Assembly (NCBI RefSeq): GCF_023028105.1 | Contig: NZ_CP095491.1 | Coordinates: 3,224,001 to 3,288,000 of the forward strand | DNA length: 64,000 nt | Direction: 5' to 3' | Source: Halosolutus gelatinilyticus | GTDB taxonomy: Archaea > Halobacteriota > Halobacteria > Halobacteriales > Natrialbaceae | Part shown: piece after piece, positions 26,379 to 28,308 of the stretch | How the letters are laid out: each line of letters starts with the position of its first letter | How positions within the stretch are numbered: position 1 is the first letter of the stretch | Notes under the pieces: generated by a model | Told to the model about the DNA's origin: nothing | Seen by the model: the letters and a program-made list of their open reading frames with translations, nothing else | The model's database searches: none | Translations under genes and position numbers: made by a program

Positions 26379-27077
26379 ATGTCCCATCGAAGACTGGACA
26401 GACGGACGTTCGTTGCAGCAGCGGGTAGCGCAAGTGTGCTCGTTCTCGCTGGCTGTACCGACGGTGCAACCAATGGCGATGGCTCGGGAGGATCCGGCGA
26501 CGACGGGTCGGGTGACAACGAGAGTGACGGTAACGAGACGGGAGGCGGAACGGGTGACGAGACGTACACGCTCACGGTGACCGTCGAGACCGAAAACGGC
26601 GAGCCGGTCGAAGGTGCGACCGTTCGACTCATGGAAGCCAATGCGGCCGAGACGGGTGACGGTGGAGCCGGGAACGAAACCGACGCCGGCAACGAGACGG
26701 AGGGTGGAAACGAGACCGGAGACGGAATGGGCGGGAACGAAACCGAAGACGGAATGGGTGAGGGCGGAAACGAGACCGGAAACGAGACCGGAAACGAGAC
26801 CGGGAACGAGACCGGAAATGAGACCGGAGGCGGAGGCGCCGGCGCCGGCGAACTGACCGAAGAGGAAGACGAAACCGACCAGGAAGGCCAGGTCGAGTTC
26901 GACGACCTCGAGAACGGCGAATACACTGTCACCGCGGAACACGAAGAGGGAGAAGCGGAGGACAACGCCGAGATCGATGGCGGCGACGAGGAAGTCACCC
27001 TGACGCTCGGTGCCGGAGGGGCGGGCGGAACCGGCAACGAAACGGAGAACGAGACGGAGAACGCAACCGAGGTCTGA
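26379..27077 (+). CDS. Tat-exported lipoprotein with N-X-T sequon repeats
   Basis: The protein has 232 residues. The N-terminus has the Tat motif RRLDRRTFVAAAGSASVL and lipobox LAGC, so the mature protein should start with a lipid-modified Cys24-type residue on the outer face. A carboxypeptidase-regulatory-like beta domain begins YTLTVTVETENGEPVEGATV, is interrupted by about 60 residues, and resumes at QEGQVEFDDLENGEYTVTAE. The interrupting segment is mostly Gly-Asn-Glu-Thr repeats. Fourteen N-X-S/T sequons occur in total, so it could be heavily N-glycosylated. It is a single gene with unknown function. Confidence 0.8.
   Translation: MSHRRLDRRTFVAAAGSASVLVLAGCTDGATNGDGSGGSGDDGSGDNESDGNETGGGTGDETYTLTVTVETENGEPVEGATVRLMEANAAETGDGGAGNETDAGNETEGGNETGDGMGGNETEDGMGEGGNETGNETGNETGNETGNETGGGGAGAGELTEEEDETDQEGQVEFDDLENGEYTVTAEHEEGEAEDNAEIDGGDEEVTLTLGAGGAGGTGNETENETENATEV
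26766..26825 (+). repeat. Five tandem 12-bp repeats (GGAAACGAGACC) in the lipoprotein gene
   Basis: Five in-frame copies run head to tail, each encoding GNET. Copies one to three are identical, copy four begins GGG, and copy five has AATGAG for AACGAG. Four degenerate NET units precede them in the same gene. Such a run can expand or contract by replication slippage, changing the number of glycosylation sites. Confidence 0.9.
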
Positions 27078-27426: not shown

Positions 27427-27573
27427 ATGCGCGACGAAGAAGAAATCCGCGAGCAGTACGAGTTCCTCACGGAGCACCTCGAGAGTGACGAGATGCGCCA
27501 CGACGGTGTCAGGGAGATGTTCACGTACTACAAGCGGGCGATCGGCTGGGTACTCGAAGAGGAACACATCTGA
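27427..27573 (+). CDS. Conserved small acidic protein, 48 residues
   Basis: From ATG 27427 the protein begins RDEEEIREQYEFLTEHLESD and ends FTYYKRAIGWVLEEEHI. It is almost entirely helical and acidic. I recall closely similar short proteins in many haloarchaea, without a known role. Codon use is typical and the C-terminal Trp/Glu ending is conserved in those. It lies 74 bases before the start of the hairpin-rich region. Confidence 0.7.
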   Translation: MRDEEEIREQYEFLTEHLESDEMRHDGVREMFTYYKRAIGWVLEEEHI

Positions 27574-27617
27574 GTACGTGTAAGGGAACGGGAATTATCC
27601 CCGGCGGTGTCGACACA

Positions 27618-27623
27618 TTTAAG
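27618..27623 (+). promoter_or_regulatory. TATA-like box before the hairpin region
   Basis: TTTAAG lies 24-29 bases before the first base of the first perfect hairpin at 27647. The spacing matches an archaeal promoter whose transcript would start at the base of that hairpin. There is no coding frame downstream. Confidence 0.45.
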
Positions 27624-27646
27624 TACTGTCAGCAAAATCTAACACG

Positions 27647-27831
27647 TGACGCTTCGCTTGGAGGGCCGAAGCGTCAGCGGGGACCAATTCAGGGCGGCAA
27701 GCGATCGCGTGACACTTTTCCCGTCACGCGATCTGCTTTCCTGTTTACTCTACTCGACACGGAGCGACGGCACCGATCGTTTCACCGGATTCTCTCCGGT
27801 TACGGACGATTCTCACCGTCGCCGTTTCCGT
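27647..27831 (+). ncRNA. Candidate structured RNA with three long hairpins
   Basis: Three strong stems follow one another in a gene-free region. H1 is GACGCTTCG/CGAAGCGTC (27648-27656/27667-27675), nine pairs plus a closing T-A. H2 is AAGC plus GATCGCGTGAC pairing with GTCACGCGATC plus GCTT (27699-27738), 15 pairs with one bulged T. H3 is nested: ACGGA/TCCGT, GCGACGG/CCGTCGC, ATCGT/ACGAT and ACCGGA/TCCGGT (27759-27831), 23 pairs. A TATA-like box precedes H1 and a T-rich stretch follows H2. It matches no RNA family I know. The DNA could instead be a decayed mobile element. Strand is assumed from the promoter. Confidence 0.5.
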
Positions 27832-27965
27832 TGATAAGTATCCAAAGAGGTATTCTCTGTACTGTAAACATGAATCTGGGGTTATGTATATGCGCGCGTC
27901 GTATCCGTCACTGACGTTATCATTTGAAAGCGGTCGAAACGACTCTCCCGCGATAGTAATAGCCC

Positions 27966-27981
27966 TGTTTCGATCGAAACA
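27966..27981. promoter_or_regulatory. 16-bp palindrome upstream of the PadR gene, possible operator
   Basis: TGTTTCGATCGAAACA is a perfect 16-base palindrome ending 11 bases before the TATA-like box. A related TCGAAAC half-site lies near 27934. PadR-family dimers bind such sites and often repress their own gene. Confidence 0.5.
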
Positions 27982-28032: not shown

Positions 28033-28308
28033 ATGTACGACCTGACAGGATTCCAGCGTGACTTGCTCTACGTCATCGCTGGCGAGGAGGAGCCCCACGG
28101 ACTGGCGATCAAAGAAGAACTCGAGCAGTACTACGAGAAGGAGATTCACCACGGTCGACTGTACCCGAACCTCGACACCCTCGTCGACAAGGGACTGGTC
28201 GAGAAGGGACGACGCGACCGCCGGACGAACTTCTACACCCTCACTCGGCGCGGTCGCCGAGAACTCGAAGCACGCAGGGAGTGGGAGTCCCAGTACGTCG
28301 ACCTGTAA
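28033..28308 (+). CDS. PadR-family transcriptional regulator
   Basis: The protein has 91 residues. The winged-helix PadR core is clear: DLTGFQRDLLYVIAGEEEPH, GLAIKEELEQYYEKEIHHGR, LYPNLDTLVDKGLVEKGRRD and RTNFYTLTRRGRRELEARRE. It has no effector domain beyond the DNA-binding domain, as is typical of short haloarchaeal members. It probably binds DNA as a dimer. A palindrome lies just upstream of the TATA box, so autoregulation is likely. The ligand and target genes are unknown. Confidence 0.88.
   Translation: MYDLTGFQRDLLYVIAGEEEPHGLAIKEELEQYYEKEIHHGRLYPNLDTLVDKGLVEKGRRDRRTNFYTLTRRGRRELEARREWESQYVDL

Follow-up and report, generated by a model that had tools for sequence, protein, structure and literature searches.

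The window, a stretch of 64,000 nt from the genome of Halosolutus gelatinilyticus, contains a predicted structured RNA of about 100 nt on the forward strand (positions 27646 to ~27750), and we are almost certain that this is a genuine structured RNA gene found class-wide in the Halobacteria. It was concluded to represent a new class-wide family of structured and probably trans-acting RNAs. The existence of the gene, its conservation, the structure of its second hairpin, its promoter, its restriction to the class and its copy number follow directly from the comparisons described below. As a complete statement, the interpretation of an independently transcribed, class-wide RNA of ~100 nt, with a conserved protein as the most likely partner of its 5′ domain, is given slightly less than an even chance.

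The gene is supported by covariance-model matches, by the lack of an Rfam counterpart and by the stability of its fold. The sequence 27646–27750 was more stable than dinucleotide shuffles (z = −3.96), with 0 of 200 shuffles equally stable; the corresponding values for the whole 251-nt stretch were z = −4.29 and 0 of 200. Rfam 15 gave no match at the gathering threshold, and a search of 27600–27860 on both strands with permissive filters gave none even at E ≤ 10, in agreement with the original prediction, for which no Rfam family of such a layout was known. A C/D or H/ACA guide RNA was rejected: the RNA matched none of the guide-RNA families in Rfam, and inspection of the conserved sequence by eye showed neither C/D boxes with a k-turn nor an ACA box with a guide pocket. 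The region had been described as lacking a coding frame, which proved incorrect, as an open GTG frame of 62 aa spans it (27646–27834). This frame had no Pfam match, and a protein-coding small ORF was rejected because 1-nt indels in the H1 loop, the linker and the H2 loop break it in relatives. A 48-aa microprotein (MRDEEEIREQYEFLTEHLESDEMRHDGVREMFTYYKRAIGWVLEEEHI) is encoded directly upstream of the RNA on the forward strand (27427–27573), with tblastn matches in 86 of the 117 distinct RNA loci and 77–96% identity in those inspected; it matched nothing in Pfam or NCBIfam. Further upstream, a lipoprotein-like ORF (26379–27077, forward strand) has long GNETE repeats and differs greatly between relatives in both length and identity.

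The promoter (27611–27623, forward strand) comprises a BRE-like CGACAC (27611–27616) and a TATA box, TTTAAG (27618–27623). The latter had been placed at archaeal promoter distance before the first hairpin (H1), and it does lie 30 nt before the GACGC of that stem. C27611, G27612, T27619, T27620, A27621 and A27622 were unchanged in 70 of 70 Natrialbaceae loci, while the 30 nt from the first T of the TATA box to GACGC were kept in 107 of the 117 distinct loci across the class. Based on the TATA position and the usual archaeal spacing, the start of the RNA would be at the foot of H1 (~27646–27648), and in the source strain the RNA is probably transcribed independently from this BRE/TATA promoter. 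The T-rich bases noted earlier after the second hairpin (H2) were present in the DNA; they form a U-rich 3′ end and putative terminator (27744–27750, forward strand), with CTGTTT in nearly all Natrialbaceae rows and a pyrimidine-rich tract elsewhere. Transcription may terminate in this tract, which would place the 3′ end at ~27744–27750 and make the RNA about 100 nt long. The motif GAGCGAC was enriched 0–40 nt downstream of the RNA, occurring in 14 of 77 loci compared to 0–4 in other intervals. In the window it lies at ~27762–27768, possibly as a sign of processing or of a longer transcript. Given this enrichment and the 161-nt length of the small RNA catalogued in Haloferax volcanii, the actual 3′ end could be farther downstream.

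BLAST with 27630–27850 found the region in 124 of 125 genomes of the family Natrialbaceae, representing 29 genera, nearly all at 81–100% identity and usually in one copy. The covariance model (R1) matched 383 of 392 genomes of the order (343 of 345 of good quality) and 387 of 391 genomes of the class Halobacteria (375 of 377 of good quality). For a sample of the phylum, all 15 class members were matched and none of the 85 genomes outside the class. The RNA is therefore restricted to the class Halobacteria and near-universal there. It was absent from three families, some with small or incomplete genomes, and was still absent when one or two genomes of each were searched more permissively. The family of Haloferax mostly carried two copies, and sometimes up to four. 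Viral contigs and phages contained no copy.

The original prediction was of three consecutive hairpins as a possible RNA. The third (H3, ~27759–27832) is nested in four blocks as predicted, and by itself was also more stable than dinucleotide shuffles (z = −3.50; 0 of 200 equally stable). Nevertheless, it was found in the source genome only: in the other two species of the genus neither its sequence nor its pairing is kept, and it was rejected as part of the RNA. Most BLAST alignments within the family ended at ~27750. Since the family keeps H1 together with its loop and the linker, H2 varies there and H3 is lost even within the genus, the RNA consists of H1 and H2 only. For these two hairpins the idea of a new structured RNA is strongly supported by the class-wide distribution, the promoter, the covariation of H2 and its strand-specific G-U pairs, and the lack of an Rfam match.

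H2 (27690–27743, forward strand) has a core of 11 perfect pairs (27703–27713/27723–27733) closed by a U-rich loop. The stem continues past a bulged U (U27734) with AAGC/GCUU to give the 15 pairs and single bulge originally described, and is followed by a CAGG/CCUG clamp (27690–27693/27740–27743). Covariation within the family was assessed in 46 sequences aligned by plain MAFFT without reference to structure. Of the 15 pairs, 11 were changed on both sides and 99.4% of cells could pair; 87 cells had double changes compared to 26 in shuffles, and none of 500 shuffles reached the observed score. Shifting the partner by one to three columns in this alignment destroyed the covariation. Across the class, using 33 sequences aligned to the covariance model and hence leaning towards that model, double changes were seen for 15 of 15 pairs (142 cells compared to 36 in shuffles; 0 of 500). 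Compensatory change beyond chance, by which a structured RNA is recognized, was thus found in H2. Many of the pairs are G-U or U-G in the forward sense, which would be A/C mismatches on the opposite strand, indicating that the RNA is encoded on the forward strand. An alternative pairing proposed by RNAalifold, GCGGGGA/UUUCCUGU, was rejected as its 3′ strand was not conserved outside the family. Covariation in at least two stems had been named as support for an RNA; of the three stems it was found in one, H2, whereas H1 was invariant and H3 unconserved.

The 5′ domain, of ~40 nt, has the consensus GACGCUUCG-YUUGGAGGGC-CGAAGCGUC-AGCGGGGACC, in which the first arm, the G-rich loop, the second arm and the linker are all nearly invariant. 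H1 (27647–27676, forward strand) is a perfect stem as predicted, although with ten pairs rather than nine (27647–27656/27667–27676; inverted repeat 100%), and carries a 10-nt loop, CUUGGAGGGC (27657–27666). The loop occurred in the variants CUUGGAGGGC, CUUUGGAGGGC and UCUGGAGGGC. H1 was unchanged in the 46 family sequences, and across the class eight of its ten pairs were invariant with zero compensatory change. Invariant pairs are uninformative about pairing by themselves; the lack of compensatory change indicates that the stem is held by sequence and not by pairing alone. The single-stranded linker GCGGGGACCAAUU (27677–27689, forward strand) was near-invariant across the 117 distinct loci, with AGCGGGGACCAATT in 94 and AGCGGGGAC in all 117. 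In the predicted fold the G-rich loop and the linker are largely unpaired, and they are among the most conserved stretches. Two plasmids, pHLAC01 of Halorubrum lacusprofundi and one of Haloarcula sp. GH36, also carry partial copies of the 5′ part of the RNA; the copy on pHLAC01 lies 2 kb from a gene for a TRAM-domain protein.

In the preferred explanation, the BRE/TATA promoter would initiate the RNA at the foot of H1, and the RNA would end in the U-rich tract after H2. H2, whose sequence drifts but whose pairing persists, would serve as a scaffold and as a 3′-end or stability hairpin. Function would reside in the near-invariant H1 stem, loop (YUUGGAGGGC) and linker (AGCGGGGACC), which may bind a conserved haloarchaeal protein and act in trans, as the core of an RNP or as a decoy or global regulator. 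Action in trans is suggested by the second copies in Haloferacaceae, which lie away from PadR beside TrkA/DUF5813. Protein binding is suggested by the invariant, non-covarying stem together with the lack of an extended linker complement and of any rRNA pairing beyond chance. When the 14-nt linker complement was searched in 21 genomes of the family with one mismatch allowed, it was found only at the RNA gene and, with one mismatch each, at two isolated sites, and a long conserved antisense target was therefore rejected. A bolder form of this explanation, by analogy with bacterial RNAs, is that the RNA forms the core of a haloarchaea-specific RNP, a class-wide global regulator functionally comparable to the 6S/CsrB type that contacts a conserved protein through its near-invariant 40-nt 5′ domain and originated when the main haloarchaeal radiation began; this is considered possible, if on balance rather unlikely.

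The main rival to protein binding is pairing with mRNA through short seeds, a reading that is less probable than not and still a serious one. The loop (UUGGAGGG) and linker (GCGGGGACC) would then be seeds for short C-rich mRNA sites, possibly with archaeal Lsm, and H2 would be only stabilizing. Seeds of 7–10 nt would likewise conserve the G-rich loop and linker, both of which are largely unpaired in the prediction and among the most conserved stretches, and mRNAs are the presumed targets of the haloarchaeal sRNAs studied so far (PMC3432209, PMC6560208). However, the H1 stem shows the same invariance as the loop, which seeds would not require; nor did the 21 genomes contain a conserved long complement of the linker.

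A ribosome-associated RNA is improbable. According to this explanation the GGAGG of the loop mimics a Shine–Dalgarno sequence, pairs with the 3′ end of 16S rRNA and modulates translation. GGAGG does complement the CCUCC of 16S rRNA (GGAUCACCUCC was found), and other sRNAs of H. volcanii are associated with ribosomes (PMC12482152, PMC6104027). This match is of 5 bp only, though, and the anti-SD would be matched better by a sequence other than the conserved GGAGGG. The best pairings of loops, linkers or cores with 16S and 23S rRNA were no better than those of shuffled sequences.

Downstream of most first copies lies a PadR gene in the same orientation, in many cases with FolD and DUF7117 genes nearby, and the original prediction had suggested that the RNA might act near PadR or on its own. 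A leader or attenuator of this gene is nonetheless very improbable: the distance from the RNA core to PadR varies from ~200 to 1380 nt, the RNA has its own promoter and a U-rich end after H2, PadR has an upstream region of its own that includes a palindrome (27966–27981), and the second copies in Haloferacaceae adjoin TrkA/DUF5813 and no PadR. With no fixed position before one gene, a cis-regulatory leader or riboswitch was rejected. The variable spacing and the second copies without PadR leave action on PadR unsupported and suggest that the PadR locus is the ancestral position of the RNA rather than a functional tie. The short PadR regulator in the window (28033–28308, forward strand; 91 aa) was unusually conserved, with identities mostly of 96–100% between many genera of Natrialbaceae and of about 75–92% in most other families. 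The palindrome before it, TGTTTCGATCGAAACA, is perfect over 16 bp, is kept within the genus and is likely to be the PadR operator.

Still less probable is an element acting as DNA, such as an operator or recombination site built on the inverted repeat GACGCTTCG. The H1 arms are indeed invariant as DNA; against this, the covariation of H2 includes G-U pairs, the spacer has neither symmetry nor a constant length, and other CGCTTCG-N-CGAAGCG repeats are few and have no spacer in common. The dispersed repeat or transposon relic raised as the original alternative, for which the hairpins and the partial copies on two plasmids might speak, is refuted by the H2 covariation together with a single copy per genome at one syntenic, ancestral locus in most families, and no copy occurred in viral contigs or phages.

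The Haloferacaceae second copy can be related to a published RNA. In Haloferax marisrubri this copy is preceded on the same strand by genes for CetZ, an epimerase, dTMP kinase, an E1 dehydrogenase, Lrp, TrkA, Lrp and DUF5813, and is followed by a chemotaxis transducer gene. In H. volcanii, CetZ1 is HVO_2204 (PMC10927574) and the E1 dehydrogenase gene is HVO_2209 (PMC8305020), so that four genes on, the RNA would fall right after HVO_2213. This fits the position of hts10 (HVO_2213s), between HVO_2213 and HVO_2214, a forward-strand sRNA of 161 nt found by sequencing and prediction, attributed to Heyer et al. 2012 and present in 18 other genomes; its deletion caused only mild changes in growth (PMC3956466). 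The two were taken to be the same, an identification that rests on gene order and not on H. volcanii sequence. The copy in the window is the other paralogue, at the PadR locus and not at the hts10 position, and H. volcanii probably has such a second copy besides hts10. Its published name may be H3.2 or HVO_2908s (PMC10927574), H225.2R (PMC3956466) or sRNA_60/61 (PMC12482152). A literature search by the sequence of the RNA returned no paper.

Individual copies have probably been sequenced as sRNAs before, so that a transcript in Haloferax is probably already on record. The family across the class, its structure, the near-invariant domain and the paralogy were not described in the published text compared, and a mention in Babski 2011, Heyer 2012 or supplements is possible. 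Haloarchaeal sRNAs have been described as poorly conserved, 22 of 27 being restricted to a single species (PMC3956466). By contrast, this one RNA gene, with its near-invariant ~40-nt domain, is present in about 98–99% of the sampled genomes of the class. A covariance model built from the alignments would allow its routine annotation.

By gene order, hts10 would be the second copy of Haloferacaceae, on the same strand. As published, it is one 161-nt sRNA with mild phenotypes, and the class-wide family, structure, covariation, PadR-locus paralogue and mechanism are not part of its description in the published text compared. sRNA132, s479, sRNA194 and SHOxi are likewise small haloarchaeal regulatory RNAs, mostly intergenic. 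According to a published list, the first three occur in H. volcanii alone (PMC3956466), whereas the present RNA is near-universal. With probably two copies, H. volcanii offers a tractable model for the question of an archaeal housekeeping regulatory RNA beyond SRP, RNase P and guide RNAs. In bacteria, 6S RNA and CsrB/RsmZ are clade-wide structured housekeeping regulatory RNAs. Their architecture is different from that of the haloarchaeal RNA, which has no sequence or structural match in Rfam; the clade-wide distribution is shared, and a protein-binding or decoy role is the proposed analogy.
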